Source: Arthrobacter saudimassiliensis
Lineage (GTDB): Bacteria > Actinomycetota > Actinomycetes > Actinomycetales > Micrococcaceae
Length of the DNA stretch: 64,000 nucleotides
NCBI GenBank assembly: GCA_900016675.1
Contig: LN483072.1
Coordinates: 186,001-250,000, forward strand
Direction of reading: 5' to 3'
In this document: positions 31,235-37,851 of the stretch, piece after piece
How positions within the stretch are numbered: position 1 is the first letter of the stretch
Layout of the letters: each line of letters starts with the position of its first letter
The notes under the pieces: generated by a model
Seen by the model: the letters and a program-made list of their open reading frames with translations, nothing else
Databases searched by the model: none
What the model was told of the DNA's origin: nothing
Position numbers and translations under genes: made by a program

Positions 31235-32011
31235 CTACTCGTTTTCGAAGTGGGTCTGCGCCGGGGCACCGTTGTACCGCTGGACGACCTCCGCGGCGAT
31301 CTCCCGCAGCTTGAGGTTCCGTGCGTTCGAGGCGCGGCGGAGGACGTCGAAGGCTTCCTGCTGTCCGCAGCGGTTCTGGCCCATGACGATCCCCACTGCG
31401 AGGTCGATGTCGGTGCGGGAGGCCAGCACCGCCTGCAGGTCGGCGACCGTGCCGACCTGGGCCGCCATCCGCACTGCTAGCTTGAGGGCCTGCGAGGCCT
31501 GCCCGGCGTAGGCGCGGGCTGCATACCGGAACCGGTGGTCGAAGACCTCCGGTTCCTCCGCATACAGGTTGAGCGCCGCCCTGGCCCTTCCTTCCAAGGC
31601 CAGCGGCAGGCTGTAGACCGAGCGCACCCCCAGCGAGGCGATGTGCGCTGTGTAGTTGCGCCAGCGGCTTTCGAGCAGGGTGTCCGCAACGAGCACTTCC
31701 TCGCCGGTGCGCAGCGCATGCAGGCAGGGGCCGTCGCCGAAGTCGTACTGGACTTCATCGAGGCTGCGGGCGGTGTCGCCGCTGCTGGCCACGGTGTGTT
31801 CCGCAGCTGCCGCGCGCTGCAGGGTGACACCGCAGTGCACGGTGCCCCGGCAGGAGAAACCGGATGCGCTCAGGCGGGCCAGCTCATGCAGGAACCCAAG
31901 CACATCGGCTGAATCCACCAGCAGATCCTGCAGCGCCGCCGCGGCGGCCTGGCGGGCTTCCCTGTCCGCCTCCGACGGAGGCAGGGCGCGCTCATGCGCA
32001 GTGGAATCCAT
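31235..32011 (-). CDS. GAF and ANTAR domain-containing regulator
   Basis: 258 residues. A GAF domain spans about 60-180 (YDFGDGPCLHALRTGEEVLVADTLLESRWRNYTAHIASLGVRSVYSLPL). A C-terminal ANTAR domain (LQAVLASRTDIDLAVGIVMGQNRCGQQEAFDVLRRASNARNLKLREIAAEVVQRY) follows. ANTAR proteins bind paired hexaloop hairpins in nascent RNA and prevent termination; the GAF domain would sense a small molecule or redox state. No adjacent target was identified. The ATG at 32011 has only a weak ribosome site. Confidence 0.9.
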   Translation of the reverse strand: MDSTAHERALPPSEADREARQAAAAALQDLLVDSADVLGFLHELARLSASGFSCRGTVHCGVTLQRAAAAEHTVASSGDTARSLDEVQYDFGDGPCLHALRTGEEVLVADTLLESRWRNYTAHIASLGVRSVYSLPLALEGRARAALNLYAEEPEVFDHRFRYAARAYAGQASQALKLAVRMAAQVGTVADLQAVLASRTDIDLAVGIVMGQNRCGQQEAFDVLRRASNARNLKLREIAAEVVQRYNGAPAQTHFENE

Positions 32012-32657: not shown

Positions 32658-32849
32658 CTAGTCCCAGAGCCCGTCCGCCCACGCGGCGTCCCGCAGATAG
32701 CTCCGGGCCGACGCGACATCCCACAGCTCGCCGCGGGATGCCACCATTCCCATCTCGCACATATCCAGCACCTGGTCCTCGGAACAGCCGAGGGCGTTGC
32801 CCAGATCGCCGGTGTCGGCCGCGAGAACTACGTCTTCCTGCTCCCCCAT
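32658..32849 (-). CDS. 63-aa acidic protein of the RiPP-like locus, unknown function
   Basis: 63 residues, acidic, ending in a Trp-rich tail (AAWADGLWD). It contains two Cys (LGCSEDQVLDMCEMG). The pattern LGNALGCSEDQVLDMCEMGMVASR followed by WDVASARSYLRDAA resembles a small helix-turn-helix fold, so it may bind peptide or DNA. It starts 44 bp after the thiopeptide-type gene on the same strand, with AAAGGGG upstream, so it is likely co-transcribed. No family is recognised. Confidence 0.6.
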   Translation of the reverse strand: MGEQEDVVLAADTGDLGNALGCSEDQVLDMCEMGMVASRGELWDVASARSYLRDAAWADGLWD

Positions 32850-32893
32850 GGCGTTACTGCCCCTTTCAGTGGTTTCCCCCGACCGACGCGGGG

Positions 32894-33853
32894 CTAACGC
32901 TTGTCCAGCAGCATGGCTTCCCGTTCAGGGCTCCAGGTCCGCGCATAGAGTCCCATGGCGGCCTCTTCCCTCAGCGACAGCCCCAACCGGTTCAGGAGCA
33001 TGTGCGCCTGGTACACCGTCAGGTGCTGTGCACTCCTGCTCACCCTGGCCTTGTCCGCCCGGTAAAGGTAAGTGTCCATGGCCCGGAACCAGCGCCGTCG
33101 CCAGTTCTCCACGGCCGATTCGGCCGCCGTGGCCGCCATCAGCCGATGGGTGGGCATGATCTTGGCGCCCACCTGCACGGTCATCGCCTGCCGCATTCCG
33201 GCGGCCCGGGGACCCAGGCCGGCGGTGCAGCTGCGCAGGTGGCTGTCCCAGTAGTACTCCCAGGAGAGGCGCCGGCGGTCCGGCCAGCTCGAGGCCCGGG
33301 GGCCTTTCATCATGCTGCGCGCGGAATCGAAGAGCAGCAGGGATCCGAGCGCCCAACGGTTCTGCACCTTCGGGAACCGTGCCGTCGCCCAGCAGGCCAG
33401 GTCGGAGGAAAGCTCAAAGACCTCCTCCGCCAGGGCCAGGCCCTCCACCCCGCCGTACTTGGCGAGGTCCGCCTCGACCCGCGGATCCTGGGGCTCCATG
33501 CCACCGGGGCCCAGCCTGTCCATTGCCGGCTCGCTGAACTCGTGCGCGACGCCAAGGTGCCCGATGACTCCGCTGGCCCGCTCCTGCAGCGCCGCCAGGA
33601 GCGACTGCAGCCGGTCCAGGGTCTCCTGGGCGGCCAGCACCCGGAGCCGGACATGAGCATTGCCCGGCTCCGAGCACCTGGTGTAGAACCACCGTTGAGC
33701 GCCCCACACCTGGGCCTGCGCCGCCAGCGGGGTAACCAGTTCTCCAATGATGCCGTCCGCTACATCGAATCCCCCGGTATAGATGGAAAGGGTCCACCAA
33801 TGAGTGCCTGTCTGTGTCCGCGAGGCTGATCGAACTGCAGCTAGCTGACTCAT
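32894..33853 (-). CDS. Stand-alone thiopeptide-type bacteriocin biosynthesis protein (lantibiotic dehydratase C-terminal domain)
   Basis: 319 residues. After about 15 residues, WWTLSIYTGGFDVADGIIGELVTPLAAQ and GAQRWFYTRCSEPGNAHVRLRVLA correspond to the start of the SpaB_C/TIGR03891 domain (usual wFFiRY..PgpHLRLRl). Helical stretches later (HLRSCTAGLGPRAAGMRQAM) also fit. In known systems this domain eliminates glutamylated Ser/Thr (LanB C-terminal half) or forms the thiopeptide pyridine ring. The Arg of the RLR motif is present. GGAGGG precedes ATG 33853 by 8 nt. No glutamylating LanB-N partner is in the window, so the reaction is unknown. Confidence 0.8.
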   Translation of the reverse strand: MSQLAAVRSASRTQTGTHWWTLSIYTGGFDVADGIIGELVTPLAAQAQVWGAQRWFYTRCSEPGNAHVRLRVLAAQETLDRLQSLLAALQERASGVIGHLGVAHEFSEPAMDRLGPGGMEPQDPRVEADLAKYGGVEGLALAEEVFELSSDLACWATARFPKVQNRWALGSLLLFDSARSMMKGPRASSWPDRRRLSWEYYWDSHLRSCTAGLGPRAAGMRQAMTVQVGAKIMPTHRLMAATAAESAVENWRRRWFRAMDTYLYRADKARVSRSAQHLTVYQAHMLLNRLGLSLREEAAMGLYARTWSPEREAMLLDKR

Positions 33854-33910
33854 GGCGTCTTCCCTCCGGGTAAACCTGGCTACCGCCGCTGGGGCGAGTC
33901 TTTACCTGCT

Positions 33911-33945
33911 AAAAACAAAAAACTGTTCCCCCAAATGAGGGGACC
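33911..33945 (-). terminator. Rho-independent terminator after the 17-aa peptide gene
   Basis: On the minus strand a short GC stem (GTCCCC paired with GGGGGAAC, with a bulge, loop TCATTT region) is followed by TTTTTTGTTTTT. It begins a few bases after the peptide stop and ends about 55 bp before the thiopeptide-type gene start. This is the best U-tract terminator in the window. It would let the peptide be expressed above the downstream genes, or act as an attenuator. Confidence 0.75.
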
Positions 33946-33948
33946 AGC

Positions 33949-34002
33949 CTAGAACCACTCCCAGCTCTTGGAGCCGGCGACGCTGATGCGAATCCTGTTC
34001 AT
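33949..34002 (-). CDS. 17-aa peptide, candidate RiPP precursor or signal peptide
   Basis: ATG 34002 opens MNRIRISVAGSKSWEWF followed by TAG. GAGGGGA sits 7 nt before the ATG; an in-frame ATG five codons earlier would add MRGNH but overlaps that site. The peptide is basic at the N-terminus and ends in an aromatic WEWF core with three Ser, which could be modified. It is directly followed by a U-tract terminator and then by the thiopeptide-type enzyme gene. Peptide identity as a precursor is inference from ribosome site, terminator and enzyme neighbour. A leader-peptide attenuator (two Trp codons before a terminator) is the main alternative. Confidence 0.6.
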   Translation of the reverse strand: MNRIRISVAGSKSWEWF

Positions 34003-34372
34003 GTGATTTCCCCTCATTGTGCGGCCCCCTGAGAGTGGGGCCGGTGCCTTGATTGACTCCGAAAGCTTCCCGCGCAGGGAAGACCAGTGTCCACCCCTTC
34101 CCGCTGCCCTCTTGCGGACATGACAGGAACAGGAACTGGACATCCGAAGGGAAAGCACTATTGCTGAGAATGACGGTCCGCCGCGGCGGCGATTCCGGGA
34201 CACAGAAGGAAAAACCGCGACGGTTCCCATGACTGTCAGCATCCTGACATGGCAGGGTTTTCACCAGTAGTCCGGTTCCTGAATGTTCACCGGGAGCCTT
34301 CTGCGCGCCGAAGACGAGGCTTCCGGATAGGGTTACAGAGAAGTGCCGGGGGAGGGCAGGAAAGGAGCAGCC
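34003..34372. promoter_or_regulatory. Intergenic leader/promoter region of the peptide locus with two hairpins
   Basis: About 370 bp between the peptide ATG and the divergent regulator. It contains CGGCCCC/GGGGCCG (34022-34043, 8-nt loop), directly upstream of the peptide ribosome site, and CTTCCC-GCGCA-GGGAAG (34066-34082). The stretch 34200-34290 is AT-richer and probably holds both promoters. Longer frames crossing this region look non-coding. Confidence 0.5.
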
Positions 34373-35338
34373 GTGCTGGATCAGGTATCACTCGATGTGT
34401 ACCGGTTCGCCGTAAGCCATCCCGGATGGAGCGTACCGCAGGCATCCGAGGCGCTGGGCTTCACCTCGAAGGCGATCGAGTCCGCCATTGACGTGCTCCG
34501 GACCCGGTGCCTCCTGGTGGAGCAGCCCGACGGCGTGGGCCTGAGCGCGGTCTCCCCCGACGTCGCCCTGGCTGAGCTGGTGGATCCGGACGAGCGGGCC
34601 CTGCTCGAGCTGCGCTCTCGCATCGCCGAGCGCAGGCGGGAGCTCACCAGCCTCGTTCCGGCCTTCCTGGAGGCGCGCCGCCAGGTGAGTGAAGACGCCT
34701 CGGTCGAGGTGCTGGAAGACCCCGAACAGGTCCAGCGCGTGCTGATCGAGTACGGCCGCTCCGTATCCGACCGGGTGCTCATCGCCCGCCCCGGGCAGGG
34801 TTCCAGCGCGGACTTCCAGGAGGAGAGCGTGCAGAAGGACGTCGAGCTGCTCCGGCAGGGCGTCCAGCGCAAGACCCTCTACCAGTCGAGCACCCGGGAC
34901 CATGTCCCCACCCGCAAGGCCGTCGAAGCCATCACGGCCGCCGGCGGGGAGTTCCGCGTCCTGCCGTACCTGCCGGTGCGGGCACTGATCTTTGACGACG
35001 AGGTCGGCGTGCTGGCCCGCCAGCTCCACCCCGAGGACCGCGCCGGACTGGTCATCCGCGATCCGAACCTGGTCCATGCCATGACGCACCTTTTCGAGTT
35101 CGCCTGGGGCCTGGCCGAACCGTTCCTGGCGGAGCAGGCCAGCGGCGCCGCGCTCAACAGCACCCAGCGCTCCGTGCTGCGCGGGCTGGCCTCCGGCGCC
35201 TCCGATGAAGTGATCGCGCGGCGGCTGGGCATCAGCGTCAGGACCTGCCGCCGGCACATTGCCTGGATGCTGGAGGAGCTGGGAGCCGAGAGCCGCTTCC
35301 AGGCGGGAATCAAGGCGCATCGGGTGGGCTGGATCTAG
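34373..35338 (+). CDS. LuxR-type regulator with TrmB-like N-terminal domain
   Basis: 321 residues. The N-terminus (VYRFAVSHPGWSVPQASEALGFTSKAIESAIDVLRTRCLLVEQ) is a TrmB/winged-helix-like domain. A phospholipase-D-like middle region follows (KTLYQSSTRDH, FRVLPYLPVRALIFDDEVGVLARQ). The LuxR HTH is at about 262-318 (LNSTQRSVLRGLASGASDEVIARRLGISVRTCRRHIAWMLEEL). GTG 34373 has AAAGGAG 6 nt upstream. It is divergent from the peptide/thiopeptide-type genes, so it is probably their regulator; the trigger is unknown. Confidence 0.87.
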   Translation: MLDQVSLDVYRFAVSHPGWSVPQASEALGFTSKAIESAIDVLRTRCLLVEQPDGVGLSAVSPDVALAELVDPDERALLELRSRIAERRRELTSLVPAFLEARRQVSEDASVEVLEDPEQVQRVLIEYGRSVSDRVLIARPGQGSSADFQEESVQKDVELLRQGVQRKTLYQSSTRDHVPTRKAVEAITAAGGEFRVLPYLPVRALIFDDEVGVLARQLHPEDRAGLVIRDPNLVHAMTHLFEFAWGLAEPFLAEQASGAALNSTQRSVLRGLASGASDEVIARRLGISVRTCRRHIAWMLEELGAESRFQAGIKAHRVGWI

Positions 35339-35457
35339 GCTCTGCGGCAGGAGCCGGGCCGGGACGGGAGGAGACTGGCGCCCGCTGCCCCCTGGGACGG
35401 CAACGCGGCGGCAACAGACGGTGCCTGCCGGTGAACCGCTCGAACTATCATGTGGGA

Positions 35458-36765
35458 ATGACTTCGTCGACGAACGCATCGGAATCCGTGGAGCTGGCCG
35501 CCGAGACCGAGGTGGCATTGGAACGGGCGGAGGCAGCCCACCGGCATGAGCAGCTGTTTTCGCAGCGCGCGCACCACATCAAGCAGTCCGCGGTCCGCGA
35601 CGTCTTCGACATCTCCATCCGGCCCGGGCTCATCTCCCTGGCCGGCGGCAGCCCGTACCTGCGCTCCCTGCCCCTCGACGACCTTGCCGCCACCGTGGCG
35701 GACCTGATCCGTGGACATGGCCTGGAAGCGCTCCAGTACGGCGGCGGCCGCGGCACGGACGAGCTGCGCCGGCTGGCCTGCGAGATCATGGCCGAGGAGG
35801 GCATCACCGACGCCGATCCCGAGGACATCGTCATCACCACCGGATCGCAGGCGGCGCAGGACGTGGCGGGAAAGGTCTTCTGCGATCCCGGCGACGTCGT
35901 GCTCTGTGAGGACCCCACCTATGTGGGCGCGCTGAACTCCTTCGAGGCCTACCAGGTAGACTTGCAGCCGGTGGAGACCGACGCCGAGGGGCTCGTTCCG
36001 GAGCGCCTGGCGGAGCGGATCCGGGAGCTGGAGGCCGCCGGGCGGCGCATCAAGCTCCTGTACACGATTCCGAGCTTCAACAACCCGAGCGGGATCACCA
36101 TGACCGCCGGCCGCCGGCAGCAGGTCGTGGACATCTGCCGGGACCACGGCATCCTGGTCCTCGAGGACAACCCCTACGGGCTGCTCCGGTTCGACGGCCG
36201 TCCGCTGGTGCCGATGCGGGCAGGCAACCCCGACGACGTGCTGTACCTCGGCTCGTTCTCCAAGATCTTTGCCCCCGGGGTCCGGCTGGGCTGGGCCCTG
36301 GTGCCGCGGCACCTGTTCCGCCGCTTCTACCTGGCCTGCGAGGCGGTGGTCCTGTGCCCGTCGCCGCTTAACCAGATGCTGGTGACCGCCTACTTCCGGG
36401 ACTACGACTGGCGGGCCCAGCTGCGGGCCTCGCGCGCGCTGTACGCCGAGCGCTGCTCCGCCATGCTGGCCGCCCTGGGCGAGCACATGCCCGAGGGCGT
36501 GTCCTGGACGGAGCCCGACGGCGGGTTCTTCGTCTGGCTCACCCTGCCCGAGGGCGTGGACACCTACCCGCTGCTGACGCAGGCCGTGGAGGCCGGCGTG
36601 GTGTTCGTGCCCGGCGCCGCGTTCACGCCGTCGGACGAGCCCGCGTCGACCCTGCGCCTGGCGTTCTCCGGGGTCTCCCCCGAGGACATCGCCGAGGGCG
36701 TGCGGCGGCTGGCGCCGATCATCCGGCGGGCGGTGGAGGCCGCCCCACCCGGGCACCCGGCCTAG
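35458..36765 (+). CDS. PLP-dependent aminotransferase, class I/II fold (LysN/2-aminoadipate type)
   Basis: 435 residues from ATG 35458. GLISLAGGSPYLRSLPLDDL, LQYGGGRGTDELRRLACEIM, ITTGSQAAQDVAGKVFCDPGD, the PLP lysine in LGSFSKIFAPGVRLGW and LYTIPSFNNPSGITM are typical of the MocR/LysN subgroup without the GntR domain. TATCAT lies about 6 nt before the ATG, so the mRNA may be leaderless; a GTG at 35431 is an alternative. The TAG stop at 36763-36765 lies in the CTAG target duplication of the adjoining IS481 element, so the insertion did not change the protein. The substrate is unknown. Confidence 0.87.
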   Translation: MTSSTNASESVELAAETEVALERAEAAHRHEQLFSQRAHHIKQSAVRDVFDISIRPGLISLAGGSPYLRSLPLDDLAATVADLIRGHGLEALQYGGGRGTDELRRLACEIMAEEGITDADPEDIVITTGSQAAQDVAGKVFCDPGDVVLCEDPTYVGALNSFEAYQVDLQPVETDAEGLVPERLAERIRELEAAGRRIKLLYTIPSFNNPSGITMTAGRRQQVVDICRDHGILVLEDNPYGLLRFDGRPLVPMRAGNPDDVLYLGSFSKIFAPGVRLGWALVPRHLFRRFYLACEAVVLCPSPLNQMLVTAYFRDYDWRAQLRASRALYAERCSAMLAALGEHMPEGVSWTEPDGGFFVWLTLPEGVDTYPLLTQAVEAGVVFVPGAAFTPSDEPASTLRLAFSGVSPEDIAEGVRRLAPIIRRAVEAAPPGHPA

Positions 36766-37754
36766 TTGTACTGCCCAGCGAGGTTAGTTAAGCGGCTGAT
36801 GGGTGGCTGGTTCCCGATTGCAGTGTGGGGTCTGTGGTGATTGTACTCATGGACCCAACCCGATAATGCTTCGCGGCGGGCGGTTTCATTGGCATAGAAA
36901 CGGGCGTAGGCCCATCCGTCGTTCAGGGTGCGGTGGAACCGCTCGATCTTGCCGTTGGTCTGGGGCCGATAGGGTCGGGTGCGCTTGGGCGTGATGCCCA
37001 GTTCGGCGCATTTGTCGCGCCATGCATGTGAGCGGTAGGCAGACCCGTTGTCCGATAAGACCCGCTCCACGGTGACGCCGCGGTCGGCGAACCAGGCCGC
37101 GGCCCGTTCGAGCACTCCGATGGCCGTGACTGATTTCTCGTCGTCGTGGATCTCGGCGTAGGCGATCCTTGAGTGGTCATCGATGACGGTGTGCACGAAA
37201 GCGGTACCCATTTTCGGGTTGCGGTGGGCATTGCGCGGCTTATCAGGCGTTGCCGAACGGTTCTTCCTGCCTTGCACCCTTCCCACCAGTCGGTGCCCGC
37301 CACCGTCGGGGATGTTGCCGAACTTCGTGACGTCCACATGGATCATCGCGCCGGGGTGTGAGTGTTCGTACCGGCGGATCGGTTCCCGGGTAACCCTGTC
37401 GATATGGCGCAACCGGTTGATCCGGCATCGGACCAGCACGGCGTGCACGGTTGAGGCGGCCAAACCCAGCCGGTGGGCGATCTGAACCGGGCCCAAACGC
37501 TTGCGCCAGCGCAGCGCCACGATCTTCTTGACCACAGCCTGCGGGGTGCGGTTCGGGCTTGTCCGGGGCCGGCTGGGCTTGTCAATCATCCCGTCCTTGC
37601 CGTGGACGCGATAGCGGTCAGACCAGCGATTGGCCGTCGGCCACGAGACCATGTACATCTTTGCCGCAGCGGCCACGCTCCACCCCTCATCGACGATGAG
37701 CTTGGCGAGGCTCAGACGTGCTTTAGGCGTCAGTGCTGCACTAGCGTGGGACAT
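36762..37754 (-). CDS. IS481-family transposase
   Basis: 330 residues. An N-terminal HTH pair (KARLSLAKLIVDEGWSVAAAAKMYMVSWPTANRW) precedes an rve integrase core with the D-D-E triad in IHVDVTKFG, VLSDNGSAYRSHAWR and NGKIERFHRTLNDGWAY. ATG 37754 has AGGAGG 5 nt upstream. The TAG stop is supplied by the CTAG target duplication at 36762-36765, so the reading frame closes outside the element. The gene looks intact. Confidence 0.93.
   Translation of the reverse strand: MSHASAALTPKARLSLAKLIVDEGWSVAAAAKMYMVSWPTANRWSDRYRVHGKDGMIDKPSRPRTSPNRTPQAVVKKIVALRWRKRLGPVQIAHRLGLAASTVHAVLVRCRINRLRHIDRVTREPIRRYEHSHPGAMIHVDVTKFGNIPDGGGHRLVGRVQGRKNRSATPDKPRNAHRNPKMGTAFVHTVIDDHSRIAYAEIHDDEKSVTAIGVLERAAAWFADRGVTVERVLSDNGSAYRSHAWRDKCAELGITPKRTRPYRPQTNGKIERFHRTLNDGWAYARFYANETARREALSGWVHEYNHHRPHTAIGNQPPISRLTNLAGQYN
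36766..36792 (+). repeat. Left terminal inverted repeat of the IS481 element
   Basis: 27 bp beginning TTGTACTGCCCAGCGAGG; matches the complement of the right end at 23 of 27 positions, the first 13 being identical. Confidence 0.88.
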
Positions 37755-37851
37755 GAAGGCCTCCTGTTTGTGAAGCGGTTTCTTAGACAGCTCCACTCCA
37801 CATCGGGAGGCCTTCGTCATCCCTTCAATTCAGTTCGTGTCGTCACACGAA

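Follow-up and report, generated by a model that had tools for sequence, protein, structure and literature searches.

What might a stand-alone relative of the elimination domain of class I lanthipeptide dehydratases (LanB proteins) act on, when the gene just upstream of it has 17 codons? The question is raised by a stretch of 64,000 nucleotides (nt) from Arthrobacter saudimassiliensis (contig LN483072.1, positions 186,001 to 250,000; here called the window), whose source genome of 3.55 Mb is our G000. The minus strand carries the 17-codon gene (MNRIRISVAGSKSWEWF, 33949-34002) with a ribosome site, GAGGGG, 7 nt before its ATG (34010-34015), the gene of a 319-amino acid (aa) elimination-domain-like protein (32894-33853) and that of a 63-aa protein (32658-32849). 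A LuxR-type regulator diverges on the plus strand (34373-35338). A first-pass annotation, made from the letters of the window, had described these parts, and all of them lie where it placed them. Judged by sequence comparison, the tiny frame is a conserved coding gene with the constant part Trp-(Asp/Glu)-Trp. It is coupled to an apparently orphaned LanB-elimination-type protein and to a protein with the tail RDxxWAxxxW, and the LuxR-type regulator is linked to it. We lean, by a little, toward a short Trp peptide that the enzyme modifies and that is exported or released to act as a signal or a bioactive compound; the 63-aa protein would be a partner.

A conserved Trp-X-Trp peptide gene

We compared 82 distinct cassette loci of the Micrococcaceae, a soil-bacterial family, 77 with an adjacent regulator and five without, the latter included for carrying the peptide. 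Enzyme loci with identical first 300 nt were merged into one; those with less than 700 nt of upstream sequence, or with a match beginning after residue 45, were left out. One locus (L172) is entered twice in the tables of peptides (78 rows, 75 peptides), tails (83 rows) and ATGTCC sites, and once in the 82-locus counts. Outside the genus of the window there are 57 family genomes with an enzyme match, and regions were taken from 56 of these (G389, a partial match, was omitted).

A W[DE]W frame preceded by a ribosome site occurs within 450 nt upstream of the enzyme in 79 of the 82 loci, and in 74 of 77 when the count is limited to regulator-linked ones. The first-pass annotation had asked whether the small frame is conserved upstream of the enzyme in relatives, and it is. 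Three controls (the adjoining 450 nt farther upstream, a downstream stretch and the opposite strand) each have such a frame at none of the 82 loci, and it lies beside none of the 47 other enzyme copies. Mononucleotide shuffles give a mean of 0.07 rows in 78. The W[DE]W, [WY]xW and RDxxWAxxxW patterns used here were derived from the same sequences that were counted, so only the controls are independent. Ribosome sites comparable to that in the window stand before the frames of relatives; peptide start codons were assigned by a script rule.

Three loci depart from W[DE]W, with WGW (L055), WAW (L171) and YDW (L057). The broader pattern [WY]xW, adopted post hoc once these were known, is present in all 82 loci, against 1, 1 and 6 of 82 in the controls and two of the 47 other copies. 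Because it also turns up in the controls, the three exceptions are weaker cases.

Between the two Trp codons stands GAC in 49 peptides, GAT in 13, GAA in seven and GAG in six (n = 75). The ratio of nonsynonymous to synonymous differences (pN/pS), taken from pairs at least 50% identical, is 0.24-0.48 in five of seven peptide length groups and 0.00 in the 7-aa group, which has two distinct sequences. These values suggest that the peptide codons are mostly under purifying selection. Around the motif there is more freedom: of 75 peptides, 55 have a Ser directly ahead of the last W[DE]W, and the remaining 20 have Ala, Val, Asn or Ile there.

Peptide length in the genus of the window is 7-17 aa. The shortest, MKSWDWF, has seven codons and occurs in eleven loci; the other forms are MNRIRISVAGSKSWEWF, MKKATAPVSIKSWEWF, MEKATGSTVSIKSWEWF, MTSKVWDWL and MTKVWDWI. 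The W[DE]W frames of other genera are longer, at 33-93 aa, hold one to six copies of the motif and nearly all begin with a Sec-signal-like segment (these segments, and the A-x-A-like junctions mentioned below, were read by eye, without a signal predictor). Examples are a precursor with ..AVGAASWDWPKTVTASWDWPK, one with six VWDWPQQ units, one with ..AANWEWPK.. and one with a terminal ..AAWDW. One lineage has repeats such as VWDWPQQAVAG that are free of Ser or Thr. A signal-like start is missing from the 33-aa frame of L124, which has three repeats, and from the WAW and YDW frames of 21-24 aa. An untranslated leader, to which the first-pass annotation would have reduced an unconserved frame, is ruled out by the codon-level conservation and the repeats.

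A terminator with a U-tract had also been proposed between the peptide and enzyme genes. The hairpin and the T-rich stretch behind it are present (33927-33943, minus strand); the scan for hairpins with T tracts gave three sites in the region where shuffles have 1.1 +/- 1.2, so the count is not above shuffle level. None of the 12 related loci whose peptide-enzyme gap was folded has a T run of at least 5. The terminator is thus unsupported as a conserved feature, and in those 12 loci it is not retained along with the frame.

Two other noncoding stretches recur. In loci from several genera the enzyme start is closely preceded by a GC-rich stretch resembling CGCCCCAGCGGCGGTAACCA (in the window at 33880-33898, minus strand), a possible conserved RNA hairpin or translation control. 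A block like GGGGGAAGCTTTCGGAGTCAA lies upstream of the peptide gene (about 34050-34075, minus strand); it is nearly identical in most of the loci listed from the genus of the window, is kept also at loci whose regulator has moved away, and is a possible promoter or 5' leader element. A search of Rfam returned a single chance-level match (11.6 bits, gathering threshold 90). We also clustered 324 candidate open reading frames (ORFs) at enzyme loci without an adjacent regulator, and found no new small conserved frame among the listed clusters of at least four members. Those clusters held, from five loci, the peptides and tail proteins of the cassette; a short frame common to four of these loci; and parts of neighbouring coding sequences.

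The elimination-domain-like enzyme

The 319-aa protein matches PF14028 at 79.9 bits (cut-off 24.4) and TIGR03891 at 55.8 bits (cut-off 48.45), which bears out its first assignment as a SpaB_C/TIGR03891-type protein. Its AlphaFold model has a mean confidence (pLDDT) of 88.9. The Foldseek matches of this model are the LanB proteins MadB, MibB and NisB and the thiopeptide cyclases TbtD, TsrL and a [4+2] aza-cyclase, with E values of 1.6e-7 to 6e-4, template modelling (TM) scores of about 0.42-0.60 by query length and a large root-mean-square deviation (rmsd).

The enzyme is present in 36 of 99 relatives (own genome included) and in 86 of 395 family genomes, which represent 9 of 32 genera (E <= 1e-25). 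In a sample of 396 genomes from the phylum it is found in the own genome only (E <= 1e-20), and in a class sample of 394 genomes there are matches in 26 (E <= 1e-4). At 1e-79 or better the class sample gives five genomes of another family (f105), besides the own genome and one family genome. In the family, phylum and class searches the best five candidates per genome were scored. The full cassette of peptide, enzyme, tail protein and regulator occurs in five genera and the peptide-enzyme-regulator part in seven.

There are 47 further enzyme loci with neither the peptide nor the tail protein, all except L058, L059 and L170 in the genus of the window. They include one in the source genome (G000:C1:368322-369176, L073) as well as L016-L019, L074, L075 and L077, and some are close together. 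A single genome has up to seven enzyme matches (G004; some are fragments). In a quick tree, which gave long-branch warnings, the cassette form is scattered through the family and the peptide-less copies fall mostly in one part with the genus of the window; this clustering suggests a later expansion. The cassette enzymes of L168 and L169, from the lineage with NWEWPK-type peptides, have an apparent insertion, their matches spanning 1065 and 1029 nt against 957 in the window.

Residues and partners of Ser/Thr dehydration

NisB with the substitution R786A, R826A or H961A still transfers glutamate but fails to eliminate it (PMC4979651); in vivo, dehydration is lost altogether with H961A (PMC4341554). 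We mapped these positions by placing the NisB segments PHIRLRI and YDQEVERYGG with a split-type relative of the enzyme. Residues were counted in 79 of the 82 cassette enzymes, sequences of 250 aa or less (frameshifted or cut) being excluded. The R786 equivalent is Arg in 35, Ser in 19, His in 13, Lys in eight and Asn in four. The R826 equivalent is Lys in 55, Arg in 16, Thr in six and Ala in two. The H961 equivalent (His284 in the window) is His in 76, Gln in two and Arg in one, and it is His in 13 of the 47 peptide-less copies. Split-type relatives have Arg at the R786 position in six of six and Lys at the R826 position in five of six; because of the latter, only the loss of R786 is telling.

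The glutamylation domain of LanB proteins (LanB-N, PF04738) does not rise over the cut-off in any of ten cassette genomes from five genera, the own genome included, and it does in both positive-control genomes. The first-pass annotation had seen no LanB N-domain at the locus, and this now extends to the own genome and nine others. The sole PF04738 match at E <= 0.01 in the cassette genomes reaches 14.8 bits, in the own genome (cut-off 28). The sensitivity of this search is imperfect, since a diverged LanB-N in a control genome fell under the cut-off piece by piece.

On the variation of the peptide, the missing LanB-N and the residue loss we reject Ser/Thr dehydration as the chemistry shared by the cassettes. 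The three Ser of the window's peptide are not supported as modification sites, as earlier proposed: Ser is not conserved among the peptides, ten of ten genomes have no LanB-N over the cut-off, and the R786 equivalent is not conserved. What the family keeps in its core is W[DE]W, not a Ser/Thr and Cys pattern of the lanthipeptide kind, and of the features of the LanB route (PF04738 with R786, R826 and H961) the cassettes as a group keep the His position.

Relatives in other families point to where the enzyme may have come from. Identity to the window enzyme is 36-40% among the five relatives from f105. Two of them, L201 and L203, were scanned: their immediate upstream neighbour is a PF04738 match (48.1 and 43.2 bits), preceded by a gene with matches to PqqD and peptidase M50; L204 and L205 have ORFs of similar size and place, and in L202 only the first of the two is among the ORFs listed. 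L206 has a PqqD-type gene and a 767-aa neighbour without a family match at E <= 0.01. L201, L203 and L206 can be read as split LanB-like rows in other families, in which a PqqD/M50-peptidase gene is followed by one that matches PF04738 (without a family match in L206) and then by a stand-alone PF14028-like gene. Because the f105 relatives sit behind a LanB-N gene, the cassette enzyme appears to be an elimination subunit that was orphaned and turned to a Trp-X-Trp peptide instead. The simplest history would be that an elimination subunit lost its partner and took a new substrate.

The 63-aa protein and its Trp tail

The 63-aa protein of the window ends in RDAAWADGLWD (32661-32693, minus strand). 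A C-terminus of the form RDxxWAxxxW, one further residue and the stop is found in 80 of 83 cassette rows and at none of the 47 other enzyme loci. In genus g8 the N-terminal part is strongly diverged and the tail unchanged. A constant tail on a changing body is the pattern expected of a core peptide or a docking helix. Two of the three remaining rows belong to genomes that keep peptide and enzyme (G036, with YDW, and G330, with WDW), where the search for the 63-aa protein gave no match; the third, L171, lies at a contig end and is not judgeable.

The AlphaFold model of the 63-aa protein (pLDDT 79.2, predicted TM score 0.52) suggests a small winged-helix-turn-helix-like body with a C-terminal helix. 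Assignment to a known helix-turn-helix (HTH) protein fails: no Pfam family is over its cut-off, NCBIfam gives no match, and no Foldseek match falls below E 0.39. The gene is present beside the enzyme as described. It had been taken for an accessory; because its Trp-bearing C-terminal tail is nearly invariant, the protein may instead be a second substrate or an essential partner.

The regulator and neighbouring genes

The divergent protein had been named a TrmB-LuxR-type regulator. Its C-terminal GerE/LuxR HTH is confirmed (33.9 bits); the TrmB part, a reading by eye, is not among the Pfam matches at E <= 1 and is dropped. The start is more likely the GTG at 34373, with AAAGGAG ahead of it, than the codon at 34343. 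Of 99 genomes, the own one among them, 35 have the regulator, and every one of these 35 carries the enzyme, in support of the proposed linkage; the matches in G036 and G050 are just 35-38% identical, and G033 has the enzyme and no regulator. In five genomes of the genus of the window the regulator is about 9-12 kb away, and peptide, enzyme and tail protein stay together. In one of these, G007, several other genes lie between and the aminotransferase described below remains beside the regulator.

It is plausible that the regulator controls the cassette. Two ATGTCC sites mark a candidate binding region in the window (34116-34143, minus strand). ATGTCC or GGACAT is present in 73 of 78 divergent intergenic rows, which are related to one another, against a mean of 12.45 and a maximum of 20 in mononucleotide shuffles. 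Among the five genomes with a separated regulator, three have no ATGTCC within 450 nt of the enzyme and two have it 428-429 nt away; in one of these genomes copies stand about 580 and 690 nt upstream of the separated regulator. Because the motif does not stay near the peptide when the regulator is apart, ATGTCC is only a lead as an operator of the cassette.

Behind the regulator lies an aminotransferase (35431-36765, plus strand), which adjoins it in several genera; any role of it in the cassette is putative. An IS481-like transposase (36762-37820, minus strand; rve_3 68.5 bits, rve 66.3, LZ_Tnp_IS481 35.3) adjoins the aminotransferase gene. Downstream of the cassette the window encodes a GAF-ANTAR protein (31235-32011, minus strand; ANTAR 61.8 bits), and an ANTAR relative is also close behind the enzyme copies in L016-L019, L023, L064, L070 and L087.

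Interpretation

We predict that the elimination-type protein binds the Trp-X-Trp segment and is the enzyme that modifies it, by a chemistry other than glutamate-driven Ser/Thr dehydration. The 63-aa protein would deliver or dock the peptide through its Trp-bearing C-terminal helix, or would itself be a second substrate. The mature short Trp peptide would then be released as a signal or bioactive product, with the operon under the control of the LuxR-type regulator. Outside the genus of the window most precursors may be exported through the Sec-like signal and cut at A-x-A-like junctions between the repeats. In the genus of the window signal and leader would be gone, the gene being reduced to little beyond the core. 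An encoded precursor beside a homologue of a modifying enzyme is the arrangement of ribosomally synthesized and post-translationally modified peptides (RiPPs). Our reading is favoured by the W[DE]W counts with their controls, by up to six core repeats in one precursor, and by the pN/pS values, the conserved tail, a regulator confined to enzyme-bearing genomes, the fold of the enzyme, the relatives behind a PF04738 gene and the His at the H961 position of the cassette enzymes. We hold this reading with limited confidence, just on the favourable side, because its chemistry is predicted.

Several observations weigh against it. The cassette is known here from its DNA, so that modification, peptide and expression are all predictions. 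The 7-aa peptides retain no leader-like recognition sequence, and the Sec-like signal on most longer precursors is odd for a modifying enzyme of the cytosol. No exporter or protease gene is recognised in the cassette. The 9-aa peptide group (two sequences) has no synonymous change and a pN of 0.101. The 47 loci with neither peptide nor tail protein indicate that the enzyme family can exist without the peptides, and the 63-aa protein is not strictly required, because G036 and G330 keep peptide and enzyme with no match to it.

The best surviving alternative is a pheromone: the W[DE]W peptide would be exported unmodified and sensed by the LuxR-type regulator, directly or after uptake, and the substrate of the enzyme would be the 63-aa protein with its tail as core. 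It would account for the Sec-like signal and the multiple short copies in many precursors, for a regulator that tracks the enzyme across genomes and for a tail that stays constant while the rest of the 63-aa protein decays. It also has a precedent in the streptococcal XIP pheromones: each consists of the last 7 or 8 aa encoded by a small ORF with a double-Trp motif, e.g. GLDWWSL (PMC5131902). It is at odds with the two genomes that keep peptide and enzyme with no match to the 63-aa protein, with the five in which the regulator is 9-12 kb off while the other three genes remain together, and with the lack of a visible export signal on the peptides of the genus of the window. We find it attractive for its fit to the signal-like starts, the repeats and the linked regulator, and regard it as unlikely.

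We are more doubtful still that the 319-aa protein is non-catalytic and binds or carries the Trp peptide, or confers immunity to it. Two of the three NisB elimination residues are mostly not Arg (Arg in 35 and 16 of 79), and peptide-less copies have multiplied in the genus of the window, as this proposal would allow; the His at the H961 position, however, is kept in 76 of 79 cassette enzymes against 13 of 47 other copies, which suggests a cassette-specific active site.

Attenuation is very improbable. The frame in the genus of the window would be a mere Trp-codon leader peptide ahead of the enzyme gene, as might be suggested by its pair of Trp codons, its very small size and the hairpin behind it, but an acidic residue separates the Trp codons in 79 of 82 loci with GAC, GAT, GAA and GAG all in use, other genera have W[DE]W frames of 33-93 aa, most of them signal-like and some repeated, and the 12 relatives checked have no T tract. 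Scarcely credible, finally, is the chemistry first proposed, dehydration of Ser/Thr in the peptide with glutamylation supplied from elsewhere: the family name, His284 and the Ser ahead of the last motif in 55 of 75 peptides fit it, but PF04738 is over the cut-off in none of ten cassette genomes against two of two positive controls (a diverged LanB-N could escape), some repeats are free of Ser and Thr, and the R786 equivalent is not Arg in 44 of 79 enzymes.

The enzyme-modified Trp peptide may represent a new RiPP-like class. In it, alongside a Trp-tailed partner of 63 aa, an orphaned LanB elimination domain would carry out a hitherto undescribed reaction on Trp-(Asp/Glu)-Trp peptides, whose precursors have shrunk to seven codons in one genus. 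We offer this tentatively, as a possibility somewhat short of even.

Comparison with known systems

The elimination domain of class I lanthipeptide dehydratases (C-terminal part of NisB, PF14028) has family, fold and a catalytic-type His in common with the cassette enzyme. Class I systems differ from the cassettes in the glutamylation domain (over the cut-off in none of ten cassette genomes), in the R786 equivalent and in the peptide, which here has no conserved Ser/Thr or Cys; no cyclase or exporter is recognised in the cassette. The thiopeptide pyridine synthases (TbtD, TclM, TsrL and the [4+2] aza-cyclase) are likewise stand-alone SpaB_C proteins of the same fold and similar size, with Foldseek TM scores of 0.55-0.60 by query length but an rmsd of 7-10 A and 14-17% identity. 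The substrate sites of these synthases are two dehydrated Ser that lantibiotic-like dehydratases have produced (PMC4979651); neither such a dehydratase nor a core with two dehydroalanine-forming Ser was found for the cassette.

Biarylitides also have an extremely short precursor gene with an aromatic core beside an enzyme. Their precursor gene is 18 bp and the cross-linking enzyme is a cytochrome P450 (PMC13417212), so the tiny gene described here is not a record, and its enzyme is of a different kind. No P450 is present among the five neighbouring proteins scanned (P450s were not searched genome-wide), and the cassette peptides have at least 7 residues, unlike the biarylitide pentapeptides. 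In the ComRS/XIP pheromones of streptococci, too, the gene is very short, its product is rich in Trp at the end and a regulator lies next to it. No PF14028 enzyme is known to take part in ComRS/XIP. The XIP sensor is the ComR protein (PMC5131902). PEARL systems use a LanB-N-like ligase with no PF14028 in the neighbourhood (PMC11212132); the cassette has the opposite composition, a PF14028 enzyme and no PF04738 over the cut-off. Six peptide strings were absent from the literature searched, and a topic search gave nothing on the cassette among the matches listed; most subscription papers lie outside that literature.

Significance

Known either as one half of a dehydratase or as the domain that forms pyridines, the enzyme domain persists in these cassettes without the partner that either chemistry needs, beside a peptide with one strict motif. 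The peptides are short enough to be synthesized, so the role of a stand-alone SpaB_C protein without a LanB partner can be tested directly. The forms, which range from a repeat precursor of 93 aa to a gene of seven codons, make up an unusual record of how a precursor can be pared down to its core. Genes this tiny are easily missed by ordinary gene calling; the seven-codon precursors, if the reading is true, would be among the shortest peptide-precursor genes proposed. The cassette suggests that these bacteria make an undescribed kind of modified or signalling peptide.

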